From: Pseudanabaena yagii GIHE-NHR1
Lineage (GTDB): Bacteria; Cyanobacteriota; Cyanobacteriia; Pseudanabaenales; Pseudanabaenaceae
NCBI RefSeq assembly: GCF_012863495.1
Contig: NZ_JAAVJL010000002.1
Coordinates: forward strand, 126,501 to 190,500
Length of the DNA stretch: 64,000 nt
Direction: 5' to 3'
Within the stretch, counting starts at the first letter, position 1; the number at the start of each line of letters is the position of its first letter. Positions 15,905-22,089 of the stretch are shown piece by piece. Under the pieces are notes generated by a model that did no database searches, had not been told where the DNA came from, and saw nothing but the letters and a program-made list of their open reading frames with translations. Position numbers and translations under genes: made by a program.

Positions 15905-15950
15905 GGCTTCGACTTTGCTCAGCCAACTTTGGCTGAGCAAAGTCGAAGCC
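15905..15950. repeat. Hairpin of the CTTCGACTTYGCTCAGC group
   Basis: GGCTTCGACTTTGCTCAGCC and its exact complement flank AACTTT. Outer bases AAGTACC (15889-15895) and GGTACTT (15954-15960) also pair. The arm is nearly the same as in the 107-bp repeats at 40040 and 43575. Confidence 0.75.
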
Positions 15951-16115: not shown

Positions 16116-16616
16116 ATGCTGGAATACCTTCCGCCATTAAATGAACATAACTTGCCATATCCCGACACAATTCATCCAATTGTGGTGCATTTTGTGATTG
16201 CGATGGTGTTATTTGCCGTAGTATGCGATGCGATCGGCTATTTCACGCGCAATCCTCGATTTTACGAAGTTAGCTGGTGGAATTTCTTCTTCGCTACCAT
16301 TTCCATCTTTATTGCCATTGTTTTTGGACAAATTGAAGCAGGACTTGCCGAACCTTATAGTGTAGTAGAACCTACGTTAAACCTCCATACCATCATCGGT
16401 TGGTCACTTTCAGGAATCATTGCCGCGATTACAGGATGGAGATACGTCTTGCGTGTCCGTGATCCCAAGACTCTACCGATATCTTTCCTAGGTGTAGGTG
16501 TACTATTAACAGGAATAGTTCTATTTCAAGTTTATTTGGGTGATTTATTGGTTTGGGTCTATGGACTGCATACGATTCCAGTAGTGGAAGCATTTAGAGA
16601 AGGTGGTTTGAAATGA
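16116..16616 (+). CDS. DUF2231 membrane protein A
   Basis: A 166-residue integral membrane protein with four predicted helices, of the DUF2231 type: DTIHPIVVHFVIAMVLFAVV places a His pair at the start of helix 1, and another lies in LHTIIGWSLSGI. The conserved histidines suggest heme or metal binding, but no function is established that I can rely on. Its stop overlaps the next start by four bases (ATGA), and the pair runs directly into the oxidase genes, so I infer one operon of five genes and a role in oxidase assembly or electron delivery. Confidence 0.8.
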   Translation: MLEYLPPLNEHNLPYPDTIHPIVVHFVIAMVLFAVVCDAIGYFTRNPRFYEVSWWNFFFATISIFIAIVFGQIEAGLAEPYSVVEPTLNLHTIIGWSLSGIIAAITGWRYVLRVRDPKTLPISFLGVGVLLTGIVLFQVYLGDLLVWVYGLHTIPVVEAFREGGLK

Positions 16617-17212
16617 TTGCAACATTAATTGATCAATTACATAGTCAATTGGGACTAAATGGCTTGCCCTATGCCATTCCGATACATCCGAATTTAGTGC
16701 ATCTGACCTTGGGATTGTTTATTGTGGCGATCGGCTTCGATATTGTGGGCGTATTTTTCGTTTTGGAAAAGCCTCTATTCAAATTTATGGCAATTCCTGC
16801 GGCAAGGTCGAATTTTTTTGATGTTGGTTGGTACAACATGGTCGCGGCAGCGATCGTCACCTTCTTTACAGTTGCGGCTGGTTTTTACGAAATATTGCTT
16901 GCGTCACCTGATGAGAATGTCAAGAGCGCTTGGGGTTTACAAGCGATGGAGACAATGCTCTGGCATGGTGTTGGAGGCGTAATTTTATTAACTCTAATTG
17001 TGGGCATGACCGTTTGGCGTGGCTTTCAGCGTTTCCTCTGGCGCAAGGATATGGGTCAACAGGTGCAGTGGAGCTATTTGCTTGCAGGATTGGTGATTTT
17101 TGCGATCATGTTTGTGCATGGGACTTTGGGTGCACAGCTTGCCTCGGAGTTTGGGGTACATATCACCGCCGATCGCCTGTTACGTTTAGGTCAAGATCTG
17201 AATTCGTTATAG
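16613..17212 (+). CDS. DUF2231 membrane protein B
   Basis: A 199-residue paralogue-like partner of the preceding gene. It has four to five membrane helices and the same type of His-containing first helix (IPIHPNLVHLTLGLFIVAIG), plus His residues in MLWHGVGGVILL and MFVHGTLGAQLA. It overlaps the upstream gene by four bases and ends nine bases before the subunit II start. Two DUF2231 proteins in tandem at the head of an oxidase operon suggest a heterodimeric membrane partner of the oxidase; this is inference from position only. Confidence 0.8.
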   Translation: MIATLIDQLHSQLGLNGLPYAIPIHPNLVHLTLGLFIVAIGFDIVGVFFVLEKPLFKFMAIPAARSNFFDVGWYNMVAAAIVTFFTVAAGFYEILLASPDENVKSAWGLQAMETMLWHGVGGVILLTLIVGMTVWRGFQRFLWRKDMGQQVQWSYLLAGLVIFAIMFVHGTLGAQLASEFGVHITADRLLRLGQDLNSL

Positions 17213-17220
17213 GGAGATCT

Positions 17221-18129
17221 ATGAAACTACGCACGATTTTAATTTTAAGTGGGATTGCGATCGCGATCGCCCTGATTAGTCTCTGGATGGGACAGCAAGC
17301 CTACACTTGGTTTCCGCCGCAAGCTTCCGCCGAATCAATTTTAGTGGATAACCTATTTAGCTTTTTGGTGACCTTAGGTACTTTCATCTTTCTGGGGGTA
17401 ATTGGCACTCTCAGCTACTCAGTTCTATTTCAACGCGCTGATAAATATGACTCTAGCGATGGCCCCCCTATCGAAGGGAATGTGAAGCTGGAAATCATCT
17501 GGACAGCGATTCCCATAGCCCTAGTGATTTGGATTGCGGGATATAGCTATCAAATCTATGACCAGATGTCAATTTTAGGACCAATGGAACATGTGCATAT
17601 GATGGCGGCGGCTCAGGCAGCACCGATGGATCAAGATAAAGTTGCAACTACGGAAAATATTGATACAGAAAATATTGATGTAATTGCGCGGCAATGGTCA
17701 TGGGAATTTCGCTACGGCAATGTTAATAGCACAGAATTACATTTACCCAATAATCGGCGGATTAAGCTCACCCTCCATTCCGAAGATGTCCTGCATGGCT
17801 TTTACGTTCCTGCCTTTCGGGTGAAGCAAGATGTAATTCCCGGACGGGATATTGATTTTGAATTTACGCCGATTCGGGAAGGGAAATATCGTCTGCGCGA
17901 TTCTGAATATAGCGGTACTTACTTTGCATCCATGCAAACCGATGTCGTGGTGGAATCACCTGAAGCCTATCAACAATGGCTAGCAGATGCGGCAAAGCGA
18001 TCGCCGATCGCTGCTTACAATCCAGCCTCTGCCGAATACAAAAAACGTAGCAACAACCAATGGAAGATAGTTGTGCCTGCGGCTCCCCCTGTAGTTAATT
18101 ACTCTAATTCTCAAGCGAGTGCTTTATGA
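17221..18129 (+). CDS. ctaC: Terminal oxidase subunit II without CuA site
   Basis: 302 residues: two N-terminal membrane helices (residues ~5-25 and ~40-62) then a periplasmic cupredoxin-like domain. The early ligand His is kept (H192 in DVLHGF). The CuA loop, normally CxExCxxxHxxM, reads D227-S-E229-Y-S231-G-T-Y-F235-A-S-M238, so both cysteines and the second His are gone. It therefore cannot carry the binuclear copper that accepts electrons from cytochrome c. This matches the alternative respiratory terminal oxidase (ARTO) type of cyanobacteria, thought to oxidise quinol. The start ATG at 17221 has GGGAG upstream; the longer open frame from 16930 overlaps the DUF2231 gene and is not used. 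Confidence 0.9.
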   Translation: MKLRTILILSGIAIAIALISLWMGQQAYTWFPPQASAESILVDNLFSFLVTLGTFIFLGVIGTLSYSVLFQRADKYDSSDGPPIEGNVKLEIIWTAIPIALVIWIAGYSYQIYDQMSILGPMEHVHMMAAAQAAPMDQDKVATTENIDTENIDVIARQWSWEFRYGNVNSTELHLPNNRRIKLTLHSEDVLHGFYVPAFRVKQDVIPGRDIDFEFTPIREGKYRLRDSEYSGTYFASMQTDVVVESPEAYQQWLADAAKRSPIAAYNPASAEYKKRSNNQWKIVVPAAPPVVNYSNSQASAL

Positions 18130-19805
18130 CCAATATTTCTGTTGAGGCGATCGCCGATCTGCCACCACATTCTGAAAAACCTGAAGATTGGAAACGCTTT
18201 TTTGGTTTCAGTACCGATCATAAAGTGATTGGCATTCAGTATTTAGTTACTTCCTTCTTTTTCTTTTTAGTCGGTGGTTTGTTTGCGATGATCGTGCGCG
18301 GCGAACTGATTACTCCTGAAGCCGATCTACTTGATCGCGCAGTTTATAACGCCATGTTCACCATGCATGGCACGGTGATGTTGTTTCTCTGGACATTTCC
18401 CTCCCTCTTAGGACTATCCAATTATCTTGTGCCATTGATGATTGGAGCAAAGGATATGGCTTTTCCGCGTTTAAATGCGGTTGCCTTTTGGATGGTTCCT
18501 GTATTTGGGATTATTCTCATGGCAAGCTTTTTCGTGCCTGGAGGACCTTCGCAGTCAGGTTGGTGGGCTTATCCTCCCGTTAGTTTGCAAAATCCTACGG
18601 GTAATCTGATCAATGGTCAGTTTCTCTGGTTGTTAGCCGTTGCTCTTTCAGGTATCTCTTCGATTATGGGTGGGATCAACTTCGTGACCACCATTTTTAG
18701 AATGCGTGCCCCGGGCATGACTTGGTTTCGGATGCCATTGTTTGTATGGGCAGTACTGTCAGCACAGATCATTCAGCTATTTGGTTTACCTGCTCTAACC
18801 GCAGGGGCAGTCATGCTCTTATCCGATCTCACCTTTGGAACTAGCTTCTTTGATCCCGCCAAAGGTGGTGATCCCGTTCTCTTTCAACATTTTTTCTGGT
18901 TCTATTCTCACCCCGCAGTTTATGTAATCATCCTGCCCATCTTCGGCGTGTTTTCCGAAATATTCCCCGTCTATGCGCGGAAACCTCTATTTGGTTACAA
19001 AGTTGTCGCTGTTTCTTCCCTATTGATTACGGGATTAAGCGGCATCGTTTGGGTGCATCACATGTATGCAAGCGGTACGCCTAGCTGGATGAGGATGATC
19101 TTCATGGCAACGACGATGATGATTTCCGTTCCCACAGGAATTAAGGTATTCGCATGGGTGGCAACAATTTGGGGCGGCAAAATCAGGCTAAATACAGCGA
19201 TGCTGTTTGGTCTAGGCGGCTTAACGATGTTCGTATTCGCAGGAATTACGGGAATCATGCTTGCTTCGGTTCCCGTTGATATTCACGTTAACAATACTTA
19301 CTTCGTAGTCGGACATTTCCATTATGTAATCTATGGCGCAGTGGTCATGGGAATGTATGCCGCGATCTACCATTGGTTCCCGAAGATGACAGGAAGGATG
19401 TATTCCGAAGGTTTAGGAAAATTACATTTCATCCTCACCTTCATCGGTACGAATGCCTGTTTCTTCCCCATGCATCCCCTCGGTTTGCAGGGAATGCCCC
19501 GCCGTGTCGCTTCCTACGATCCCGAATTCGCCTTTTGGAATGTAATCGCCAGTTTAGGTGGCTTTCTCTTAGGAATTTCCACTTTGCCATTTTTGTTAAA
19601 TATGATCGGCTCTTGGGTACAGGGCGAAAAGGCTCCCAAAAATCCTTGGCGGGCGATCGGTTTGGAATGGCTAGTTTCTTCGCCACCATCCCATGAGAAC
19701 TTTGAAGAGTTACCGATTGTAATTTCGGAACCCTATGGCTATGGCAAAGATGAACCCTTAGTTTCTAATCCTGATGCATTGGAGGTAGCTCATGCAACCA
19801 ATTAA
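18126..19805 (+). CDS. ctaD: Heme-copper oxidase subunit I, A2-like
   Basis: 559 residues with about 12 membrane helices; the catalytic subunit that reduces oxygen. Ligands seen: H81 (MHGTVMLF, low-spin heme), H262 and cross-linking Y266 (YSHPAVY), H311-H312 (WVHHMY, CuB), H397 and H399 (VGHFHY, hemes). The helix VI glutamate of the usual HPEVY is Ala here and the preceding residues are Tyr-Ser, the hallmark of A2-type oxidases. Its start overlaps ctaC by four bases and its end overlaps ctaE by 14, so tight co-translation is expected. With the CuA-less subunit II it forms an ARTO-like quinol oxidase (inference). Confidence 0.95.
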   Translation: MTNISVEAIADLPPHSEKPEDWKRFFGFSTDHKVIGIQYLVTSFFFFLVGGLFAMIVRGELITPEADLLDRAVYNAMFTMHGTVMLFLWTFPSLLGLSNYLVPLMIGAKDMAFPRLNAVAFWMVPVFGIILMASFFVPGGPSQSGWWAYPPVSLQNPTGNLINGQFLWLLAVALSGISSIMGGINFVTTIFRMRAPGMTWFRMPLFVWAVLSAQIIQLFGLPALTAGAVMLLSDLTFGTSFFDPAKGGDPVLFQHFFWFYSHPAVYVIILPIFGVFSEIFPVYARKPLFGYKVVAVSSLLITGLSGIVWVHHMYASGTPSWMRMIFMATTMMISVPTGIKVFAWVATIWGGKIRLNTAMLFGLGGLTMFVFAGITGIMLASVPVDIHVNNTYFVVGHFHYVIYGAVVMGMYAAIYHWFPKMTGRMYSEGLGKLHFILTFIGTNACFFPMHPLGLQGMPRRVASYDPEFAFWNVIASLGGFLLGISTLPFLLNMIGSWVQGEKAPKNPWRAIGLEWLVSSPPSHENFEELPIVISEPYGYGKDEPLVSNPDALEVAHATN

Positions 19806-20409
19806 TCCTGCTGTCGATCCAGCGATCGCTAATCTAGAAGTTTCCCATAGCGCCGCGCACCAAGAACATCAAGACAATCGCCTATTCGGTTTTATTGTCT
19901 TTCTGCTCTCTGAAAGCGTCATCTTCTTGAGCTTTTTCGCTGCCTATATCGTTTACAAAACCACTTCCCTCGATTGGCTGCCAGTGGGAGTAACAGGCTT
20001 AGAAATTAAAGATCCTGCCATTAACACAGTGGTTCTAGTTTCCAGCAGTTTCACAATCTACCTCGCCGAAAAATTCCTCCATAAACAGAATCTCTGGGGC
20101 TTTCGCGCTTTTTGGTTATTAACGATCGCGATGGGTAGTTACTTCCTCTATGGTCAAGCTGTGGAGTGGAGTGGCTTAGCCTTTGGTTTTGGTGATGGCG
20201 TGTTTGGCGGTAGTTTCTATTTGCTAACTGGTTTTCACGGGCTGCACGTTTTAACGGGTGTACTGTTGCAGCTAATCATGTTAGTGCGATCGTTCCTTCC
20301 CAATGAATTTAGCAAGAGTTTGTATGGCATTGAGGCAACTTCGCTATTCTGGCATTTTGTCGATGTGATTTGGATTGCGTTGTTTACGTTGATTTATATC
20401 TGGCAATGA
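19792..20409 (+). CDS. ctaE: Heme-copper oxidase subunit III
   Basis: 205 residues, five membrane helices, the short form of subunit III. Typical features are RLFGFIVFLLSESVIFLSFF in helix 1, LTGFHGLHVLTGVLLQ with its conserved His pair, and the ending FWHFVDVIWIALFTLIYIW. It starts inside the ctaD coding region (14-base overlap). It completes the oxidase operon; the next gene is separated by 168 bases containing a strong hairpin. Confidence 0.95.
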   Translation: MQPINPAVDPAIANLEVSHSAAHQEHQDNRLFGFIVFLLSESVIFLSFFAAYIVYKTTSLDWLPVGVTGLEIKDPAINTVVLVSSSFTIYLAEKFLHKQNLWGFRAFWLLTIAMGSYFLYGQAVEWSGLAFGFGDGVFGGSFYLLTGFHGLHVLTGVLLQLIMLVRSFLPNEFSKSLYGIEATSLFWHFVDVIWIALFTLIYIWQ

Positions 20410-20577: not shown

Positions 20578-22089
20578 ATGATTATTGATGACCATTATTA
20601 CGATGTGATTATTGTGGGAACTGGTGCAGGTGGTGGAACCCTTGCCTATAAACTCGCTTCCACAGGCAAGAAAATTCTGATTCTGGAACGTGGTGACTTT
20701 ATGCCCCTCGAAGAACAGAATCGCAGTAATATCGATATTTTTCAGCGCGATCGCTACCATGCTCCTGAACAATGGTACGACCACACAGGCGAGCCATTTT
20801 CACCACAGACTAACTATGTGATCGGTGGCAATACCAAAATCTATGGTGCGGCTCTCTTGCGGCGGCGCGAAAAGGACTTTGAAGAAGTCACCCATCAAGC
20901 AGGAATTTCCCCCGCATGGTGCGTAAAGTATGACGAATTTGAGCCTTACTATACCGAAGCCGAAAATCTCTATAAGGTGCATGGCAAGGCAAATTCTGAC
21001 AGCACCGAACCAACTCACAGCGCTGATTATCCCTATCCTGCGGTCAGTCATGAGCCTGAGATTCAGAAGATCTATGAGGCGATCGCTAATCAAGGTTTGC
21101 ATCCATCGACAATTCCCCTCGGCTTGACCCGTCAAGAGGATGACCCCACTAGCGACTCTGAAGAAAGTTGCCTCGTCCCTTCCTTGAAATCGGCAAATGT
21201 CACCTTAAAAACCCAAGCCAAAGTAGTCAGTCTCCATACCAATCCATCAGGGCGATCGGTGAAGGGAGTAGAAGCAGAAGTGGGCGGACAGTCCTATCTC
21301 TTTTTAGGTGATATCATCGTGCTTGCCTGTGGCGCGATTAATTCGGCGGCGCTACTGTTGCGATCGGCAAATGATTCCCATCCCAAAGGGCTTGCCAATA
21401 GCTCCGATCAAGTGGGACGGAATTTGATGAAAAGCCTGTTGTCATCGGTAGTCCAACTCAGCACTAAGCCCAATAACGGCTCCTTCCAAAAGTCGATCTA
21501 TGTAAATGATTTCTATTGGGGTGATGCGGATTTCCCCTATCCCATGGGGCATATTCAGAACTCTGGCGGACTACTCACCGACATCATTTTTGCAGAATCT
21601 CCGCCTGTATTCTCGATTGTGGCGAAGCTCATGCCCAACTTTGGACTGAAGCAGTTAGCCACCCATTCCATCGGCTGGTGGGTGCAAACGGAGGATTTGC
21701 CAGACTCAAATAATCGGGTGCGTTGGGAAAACAACAGAATCCATATCGATTACAATCCCAACAATATGGAAGCCCACGATCGCTTAATTTATCGCTGGAC
21801 TGATGTGTTAAAAAACATCGAAAAGTCCCTAGATGGCTTCCGCACTGGCTTCCTGCATCCCCGTTCCGAATCGCCTTTGCAAGTGGTCGCCAATCAATGT
21901 GGAACCTGTCGCTTTGGTAATGATCCTGCAACTTCCGTTTTAGATCGCGATTGCCGCACCCACGATCTCGATAATCTCTATGTTGTCGATGGCAGTTTCT
22001 TTCCATCTAATGCGGCGGTGAGTCCTGCTTTGACGATTATTGCTAATGCTCTAAGAGTAGGCGATCGGTTAATCGAGCGATTGAAATAG
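20578..22089 (+). CDS. GMC-family FAD oxidoreductase
   Basis: 503 residues with the N-terminal FAD-binding motif DVIIVGTGAGGGTLAY and a C-terminal GMC signature (NLYVVDGSFFPSNAAVSPALTI with downstream ANALRVGDRLI). A CGTCRFGNDP segment precedes it, as in cholesterol-oxidase-like and glucose-methanol-choline family proteins with a redox-linked or structural Cys pair. It has no signal peptide. The substrate is not predictable. It follows the oxidase operon on the same strand, 168 bases downstream, so it could feed electrons into the quinone pool used by the oxidase, but that is only positional inference. The start ATG at 20578 has AAGGAG upstream. Confidence 0.88.
   Translation: MIIDDHYYDVIIVGTGAGGGTLAYKLASTGKKILILERGDFMPLEEQNRSNIDIFQRDRYHAPEQWYDHTGEPFSPQTNYVIGGNTKIYGAALLRRREKDFEEVTHQAGISPAWCVKYDEFEPYYTEAENLYKVHGKANSDSTEPTHSADYPYPAVSHEPEIQKIYEAIANQGLHPSTIPLGLTRQEDDPTSDSEESCLVPSLKSANVTLKTQAKVVSLHTNPSGRSVKGVEAEVGGQSYLFLGDIIVLACGAINSAALLLRSANDSHPKGLANSSDQVGRNLMKSLLSSVVQLSTKPNNGSFQKSIYVNDFYWGDADFPYPMGHIQNSGGLLTDIIFAESPPVFSIVAKLMPNFGLKQLATHSIGWWVQTEDLPDSNNRVRWENNRIHIDYNPNNMEAHDRLIYRWTDVLKNIEKSLDGFRTGFLHPRSESPLQVVANQCGTCRFGNDPATSVLDRDCRTHDLDNLYVVDGSFFPSNAAVSPALTIIANALRVGDRLIERLK

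Follow-up and report, generated by a model that had tools for sequence, protein, structure and literature searches.

Two conserved DUF2231 membrane proteins accompany the CuA-less cyanobacterial oxidase ARTO and are candidates for its electron entry

The subject of this analysis is a five-gene terminal oxidase operon of the cyanobacterium Pseudanabaena yagii GIHE-NHR1, which lies within a stretch of 64,000 nucleotides (contig NZ_JAAVJL010000002.1, positions 126,501 to 190,500 of the forward strand), here called the window; coordinates refer to the window unless another locus is named. The five genes share the plus strand at 16116-20409, where two DUF2231 proteins, DUF2231-A and DUF2231-B (A and B for short), precede the oxidase subunits:

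16116-16616, + strand: DUF2231-A, 166 amino acids; PF09990, 137.1 bits
16613-17212, + strand: DUF2231-B, 199 amino acids; PF09990, 136.8 bits
17221-18129, + strand: ctaC, CuA-less subunit II, 302 amino acids from the ATG at 17221; PF00116 (COX2) and PF02790 (COX2_TM) above cut-off
18126-19805, + strand: ctaD, subunit I, 559 amino acids; PF00115 (COX1), 541.8 bits
19792-20409, + strand: ctaE, subunit III, 205 amino acids; PF00510 (COX3), 114.7 bits

Both leading proteins clear the curated PF09990 cut-off of 26.4 bits, and their genes are the only two DUF2231 genes in the 5.57-Mb source genome. A and B overlap by 4 bases, B and ctaC are 8 bases apart, and overlaps of 4 and 14 bases follow at ctaC/ctaD and ctaD/ctaE; the tight coupling of the DUF2231 genes to ctaC reported in the earlier note, a first reading of this DNA, is thus borne out by the gene calls. 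The ctaC product scores below the cut-off of the CoxB model TIGR02866 (126.8 against 147.7 bits) and that of ctaD above the cut-off of TIGR02891 (690.5 against 670.75 bits). The only other oxidase subunit I encoded by the genome belongs to a canonical ctaC-D-E cluster, which lies some 300 kb from the operon.

The operon departs in nothing from the known alternative respiratory terminal oxidase (ARTO, also Qox or Cox3; alr2729-alr2730-coxB3-coxA3-coxC3 in Anabaena, ctaCII sll0813 in Synechocystis), with which it has in common a CuA-less subunit II, a subunit I with the heme-copper ligands, the two leading genes and the gene order. That order, with two leading genes for which no function is given, and the loss of CuA are already in print (PMC6616624), and the same review describes the existence of further ARTO subunits as not clear. 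The Anabaena order recurs in the window and is likewise annotated in Trichormus variabilis plasmid A; the window carries the known ARTO operon, and the earlier note was right to treat CuA loss as the mark of cyanobacterial ARTO (PMC6616624). What is new here is the identity, the conservation and the regular ARTO linkage of the two leading proteins. We found no functional proposal for them in the excerpts of the open literature on their Anabaena and Synechocystis loci, a search that left subscription papers outside, so that prior mention of the two as putative subunits is possible; in the open full text covered, the name DUF2231 was met solely in a cysteine-annotation database paper.

Subunit II was aligned with its canonical counterpart from the same genome (L038), whose CuA motif, CAELCGSYHGGM, falls opposite DSEYSGTYFASM in the window. 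The altered site is described by two features, for which residue counts refer to a CuA-less group of 81 members (the window and the 80 census places described below):

17794-17796, + strand: codon of H192, the first CuA histidine, retained (H in 81/81)
17899-17925, + strand: codons of D227 to F235, with D for Cys, S for Cys and F for His of the CuA motif (D in 81/81, S in 81/81, F in 80/81)

This confirms the earlier reading of D227, S231 and F235 as standing in place of the two cysteines and one histidine of CuA. The CuA methionine, M238, is retained, and the remaining group member has H at the F235 position. The uniformity of H, D, S and F across the group argues that the replacement is neither decay nor chance.

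In subunit I, the heme and CuB histidines (H106, H284, H333, H334, H419 and H421 in CyoB numbering) are retained in 74 of the 75 ARTO rows compared, the other row being gapped. One further motif had drawn attention in the earlier note:

18903-18923, + strand: YSHPAVY motif of subunit I, common to the canonical CuA oxidase of the same genome

YSHPAVY does stand in place of HPEVY, but as a mark of CuA loss it is ruled out, because the CuA-containing cox1 of the same genome has it too. This canonical cluster (ctaC-D-E, G000:C2:445915-448398) has three subunits homologous to those of the window operon, from which it differs in having CAELCGSYHGGM and in having no DUF2231 pair nearby. As a side observation, the position of CyoB H411 is N in 59/75 ARTO subunit I rows and His in the canonical oxidase, a possible further alteration near the subunit I/II interface.

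The obvious comparison for a CuA-less enzyme is cytochrome bo3 of E. coli (CyoABCD), a heme-copper oxidase lacking CuA and in that respect like ARTO. The window proteins score well below the NCBIfam cut-offs for its subunits (CyoA, 54.3 against 266.2; CyoB, 433.3 against 1020.35), and the E. coli cyo stretch read has no DUF2231 among its annotated genes, unlike the ARTO operon. The four quinol-site residues of CyoB, R71, D75, H98 and Q101, are not conserved in ARTO subunit I: each is unseen in at least 74 of the 75 rows, where the corresponding positions mostly hold V/I, F/L, V/L and G/A, respectively. Judged from these residues, ARTO would seem to be without both known entry routes, CuA and a bo3-type quinol site, and this double loss speaks most strongly for the involvement of a further component.

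We then asked how regularly the DUF2231 pair accompanies such an enzyme, in a census of 291 genomes of the phylum (completeness filter 90%) searched with PF09990 and with the window's subunit II, which gave matches in 92 and 151 genomes, respectively. Besides the window, the subunit II matches separated into 79 places with at least 256 bits, plus one in two pieces (198 and 204 bits), and the rest with at most 193 bits. For CuA status we read 51 of the 68 lower-scoring places listed (at least 68 in all) and the canonical locus of the source genome, the other 17 and the unlisted places being outside the count, so that a second CuA-less kind is possible there. All 52 canonical ctaC loci read possess the CuA motif. 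Using hidden Markov models built from the window proteins to detect A and B, we found the two in unchanged order immediately upstream of the CuA-less ctaC at 76 of the 80 census places and in the window, 77/81 altogether, and no DUF2231 gene at any of the 52 CuA-containing loci (9.5-13 kb read per locus). Fisher's test gives p = 1e-32 for this difference, a value that treats related genomes as independent and is therefore overstated. The equal occurrence beside CuA-containing oxidases that the earlier note had named as fatal to its proposal is not what these genomes show.

The linkage also holds at the level of whole genomes. All 71 genomes with a CuA-less ctaC of this group have a DUF2231 pair, each with at least two DUF2231 matches, and where ARTO is present in two or three copies, in nine genomes, a separate pair accompanies 18 of the 19 copies. 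Outside those 71, three census genomes have at least two DUF2231 matches: G036 and G105, treated below, and G056, whose two genes are both of a single HP-x-HP type. A scan of named-species genomes with DUF2231-B gave 474 relatives; among the 80 retained, 79 have the pair and a CuA-less ctaC within the stretch and the remaining one lies at a contig end, these loci coming partly from the same genomes as the census.

The four places where the adjoining pair is missing belong to two settings. In three genomes of one genus (G070, G087 and G074; loci L134, L143 and L145), ctaC stands by itself, with the pair at another place in the genome, in two of the three just after a gene for NDH-2; their congener G014 (L135) has all four genes, NDH-2, A, B and ctaC, together. 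The other place is L129 of G054, a genome in which other pairs are present. At a second locus of that genome (L151, 3954-8864) we observed an apparently decayed ARTO, in which ctaC is short and ctaD continues into a ctaE-like end, downstream of an intact NDH-2 gene and pair. A decaying ARTO cluster was also seen on plasmid pAzo01 of 'Nostoc azollae' (L171:5989-9814), where DUF2231-B has several stops and no ctaE follows the oxidase genes in the gene table, which is itself incomplete.

A and B are paralogues (hhalign probability 99), and each has a set of invariant residues:

DUF2231-A: H20 (16173-16175), H25 (16188-16190), E74 (16335-16337), H91 (16386-16388), H152 (16569-16571)
DUF2231-B: H25 (16685-16687), H30 (16700-16702), E93 (16889-16891), H118 (16964-16966), H183 (17159-17161)

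These four His and one Glu are invariant in 77/77 census rows of each protein and in 80 further named-genome rows, save two rows gapped at H20/H25 of A; H169 of DUF2231-B is mostly H, otherwise Q. The earlier note had held that a lack of conserved histidines would count against its proposal, and here they are kept throughout. Single-type DUF2231 proteins that we examined mostly have a related pattern (HP..H, acidic, H, H), and the His/Glu set is therefore largely a family trait.

AlphaFold2 models each protein as four long helices, with a predicted local distance difference test score (pLDDT) of 86.3 and a predicted template modelling score (pTM) of 0.81 for A, and of 83.4 and 0.79 for B. By helix position, the five conserved residues fall at one membrane face, at the start of helices 1 and 3 and the end of helices 2 and 4. 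Loop charges on the His side are K+R 2.2 and D+E 5.3 in A and K+R 2.4 and D+E 6.9 in B, and on the opposite side K+R 4.8 and D+E 1.6 in A and K+R 6.6 and D+E 4.9 in B, which places the His face outside the cytoplasm. Published proteomics was also considered. In PCC 7002, lumen-targeted APEX2 enriches ctaCII (A0727; value 3.93), which was also identified in a single sample from the cytoplasm, and the product of the following locus number, A0728 (value 5.61), which was identified in none of those samples; sll0813 and sll1486, the Synechocystis homologues of the two, are recorded as inner-membrane proteins (PMC7880944). That paper labels A0728 an SNF-family transporter; from gene order in Picosynechococcus PCC 7117 (L335), where the pair and a CuA-less ctaC stand in one stretch, we infer that A0728 is DUF2231-B. 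Taken together, prediction and proteomics suggest that the His/Glu face of A and B most likely lies on the lumen/periplasm side.

Anabaena alr2729 and alr2730 change in expression along with the cox3 genes (PMC7065334, PMC4390870), and an NtcA-bound region at alr2729 is labelled as the cox3 operon (PMC3898017). Across 26 genomes, DUF2231-A distances correlate with those of ARTO ctaC at 0.94, or 0.83 as a partial correlation given canonical ctaD, with 0.12 as the partial value against canonical ctaC; these are simply corrected pairwise distances with canonical ctaC/ctaD as control and no trees, and they serve as support only.

Neighbouring genes include possible donors. Genes near the operon in the window include:

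20578-22089, + strand: GMC-family flavin dehydrogenase, a possible electron donor; PF05199/PF00732
14830-15315: gene for a protein with a MEKHLA domain, upstream of the operon; PF08670

A GMC dehydrogenase stands beside ARTO at 33/82 loci in one reading and 57/81 in another, recurrent if not universal, and genes of the NDH-2 family occur in the vicinity of 14 census places out of 80, with weak matches of about 90-104 bits in six cases. One locus, L148, has a neighbourhood that resembles that of Synechocystis ndbC, and the pair at the Synechocystis locus of this kind is probably sll1485-sll1486. The ndbC gene itself is sll1484 (PMC9414918). A perfect inverted repeat noticed by eye at 15905-15950 (arms of 21 bases, loop of 4) lies about 165 bases 5' of DUF2231-A.

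Because of the strength of this linkage, we regard the pair with considerable confidence as a functional partner of ARTO, and very probably an obligate one. As for what it does, electron entry seems the likeliest job, with a probability of about 0.45. On this reading, A and B would be obligate and probably integral ARTO subunits, the four invariant His and one Glu of each gathering at the lumen/periplasm face, the side of CuA, where they would most likely bind a redox cofactor (heme b as a first guess, copper as a second). Electrons would pass through them to the low-spin heme of subunit I, coming either from plastoquinol or from a dehydrogenase that reduces quinone (NDH-2 or GMC, for example), and this route would replace the one through CuA from soluble cytochrome c6 or plastocyanin. 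We infer the physical complex, the cofactor, the direction of electron flow and quinol as the donor, and the plastoquinol:O2 activity of ARTO is likewise putative here. The earlier note had placed the pair in an electron-entry module in place of CuA; linkage and histidine conservation uphold that proposal, but heme homology was not established and fold searches were uninformative.

A wider and more tentative form of the electron-entry reading, possible rather than probable, draws on G036 and G105. These two genomes, from different families and with no ARTO-group match, have the pair in one row with genes of another oxidase family, the cbb3-type CcoN-CcoO:

L233:1008-6135 and L234:5578-10657: cbb3-like ccoN and ccoO, followed by the DUF2231 pair and NDH-2, in two oxygenic-class cyanobacteria

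Their ccoN-like proteins score 204 and 263 bits against a ccoN cut-off of 583, and the ccoO matches likewise remain well below their cut-offs; in Pfam, the oxidase genes match FixO/COX1. No ccoP was noticed in the stretches read. The pair itself retains all ten His/Glu positions. In G117, a congener of G105, the pair accompanies ARTO, and it appears to have stayed in this lineage while the oxidase differed. It would then be an interchangeable electron-entry module, a heterodimer with one lumen-side cofactor per half that makes CuA-less heme-copper oxidases into quinol oxidases, kept through oxidase exchange (ARTO in 71 genomes, cbb3-like CcoNO in two), with NDH-2 or GMC dehydrogenases as its source of electrons.

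Several observations weigh against electron entry through the pair. Cofactor binding by A and B is an unproven proposal, with the conserved His and Glu forming a candidate heme or copper site. Prokaryotic cytochrome b561 (PF01292) is a helical membrane bundle, as are A and B, but these score 14.7 (A) and 7.3 bits (B), below the curated cut-off of 30.1; such sub-threshold matches recur in 37/40 A and 16/40 B proteins. Heme homology by this route was set aside, since hhalign against b561 alignments (15-member, 11-member and their union) gave probabilities of 0.2-3.5, not clearly above reversed controls at 0.2-0.9, and the top value came from B with the union, which lacked a reversed control of its own. 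A sequence search of the PDB gave no match for profile A1 and solely matches at E > 0.5 for profile A2, while the best Foldseek E values were 0.13 (A) and 0.59 (B), with none at or below 0.001. In the VIA fold comparison, rows with Z up to 14.8 were four-helix bundles, often designed proteins, interspersed with oxidase subunit III and bd oxidase, values roughly within the tool's warning range for helical bundles; b561 is among the tied rows for B at Z 10.4, rows that are mostly generic helical bundles, and A and B were assigned to no fold family.

On the same side of the balance, the distance correlation is less specific for DUF2231-B (partial 0.57, against 0.40 for the canonical control), and quinol sites vary among quinol oxidases, so that the absence of the E. 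coli residues is no proof against every site in subunit I. Gloeothece verrucosa PCC 7822 has on a plasmid (L170:5986-8326) an intact pair with no adjoining oxidase and a four-helix copper-binding protein gene near it. Matches to ccoN of at least 181 bits occur in 15 census genomes and the pair in just two of them; no more than one DUF2231 match was recorded in any of the remaining 13, namely G038 and 12 from outside the class to which the window belongs, and the 4.3 kb read in G038 had no DUF2231 gene. Cbb3-type enzymes therefore do not need the pair, and in both pair-bearing cbb3-like oxidases the ccoO cytochrome c subunit could accept electrons. Finally, in Alteromonas and Mesorhizobium plasmids a single DUF2231 gene lies beside a CuA-containing coxB, on the opposite strand. 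Such single genes in other phyla show that DUF2231 proteins at large are not restricted to enzymes that have lost CuA.

The single genes of other phyla were read in eight plasmid records, too few for a rate, with a heme-copper oxidase subunit gene within 4-5 kb in three of the eight and a sorbosone dehydrogenase within the same distance in two:

L373:4986-10453; L374:4980-6775; L377:763-4929; L375:5007-8740: single DUF2231 genes of other phyla by sorbosone dehydrogenase or heme-copper oxidase genes, in two cases with a CuA-containing coxB

Cyanobacteria, too, have a second, single-gene DUF2231 subfamily with an HP-x-HP motif (L154:3594-5538; L242:7181-12588), near which genes for proteins that look hemerythrin-like by eye were seen.

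Other roles for the pair have to be set against electron entry. It might be an assembly module that delivers copper to CuB or heme to subunit I from outside the electron path, since linkage of this kind would be expected of an assembly factor no less than of a subunit, and a His/Glu cluster on the P side suits metal binding. The orphan Gloeothece pair with its copper-binding neighbour could be read in this way, as could one single DUF2231 gene lying between a CopD-family gene and a coxB-ctaD cluster. Yet CuB and heme are equally required by the canonical CuA oxidases, which often share a genome with ARTO and have DUF2231 nearby in 0/52 cases, and the dehydrogenase neighbours (GMC in 33/82; NDH-2 in part, and with the cbb3-like oxidase) point to electron flow; we place assembly second to electron entry, as less likely than not. 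Less likely still, in our view, are redox-silent subunits that shape a quinol pocket or a proton path while quinol reduces the low-spin heme directly. A site built with other subunits is plausible for a subunit I without a bo3-type quinol site, and the invariant D227, S231 and H192 of subunit II suggest a continuing use for what was once the CuA pocket, but four His and a Glu in each of two paralogues exceed what a quinol site generally needs.

The pair could also serve a different process, such as periplasmic ferric reduction, and merely be co-transcribed with ARTO. A Synechocystis delta-ARTO strain is lower in ferric reductase activity (PMC7676907, a review), a pair without an adjoining oxidase exists, and decayed oxidase genes stand beside an intact pair and NDH-2. 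Against this, co-occurrence with ARTO in 71/71 genomes and joint duplication make such independence very improbable. Electron entry remains the reading that we prefer.

The description of ARTO as a plastoquinol oxidase follows the analogy with bo3, yet ARTO has neither the bo3 quinol-site residues nor CuA, and two regularly linked and strictly conserved candidates make the question of its electron entry testable. If the interchangeable-module reading is true, ARTO would be a five-subunit enzyme with its quinol chemistry outside subunit I. The pair may also be relevant to the ferric reductase activity that has been attributed to ARTO (PMC7676907), and an electron-entry role, if true, would give DUF2231 a function.

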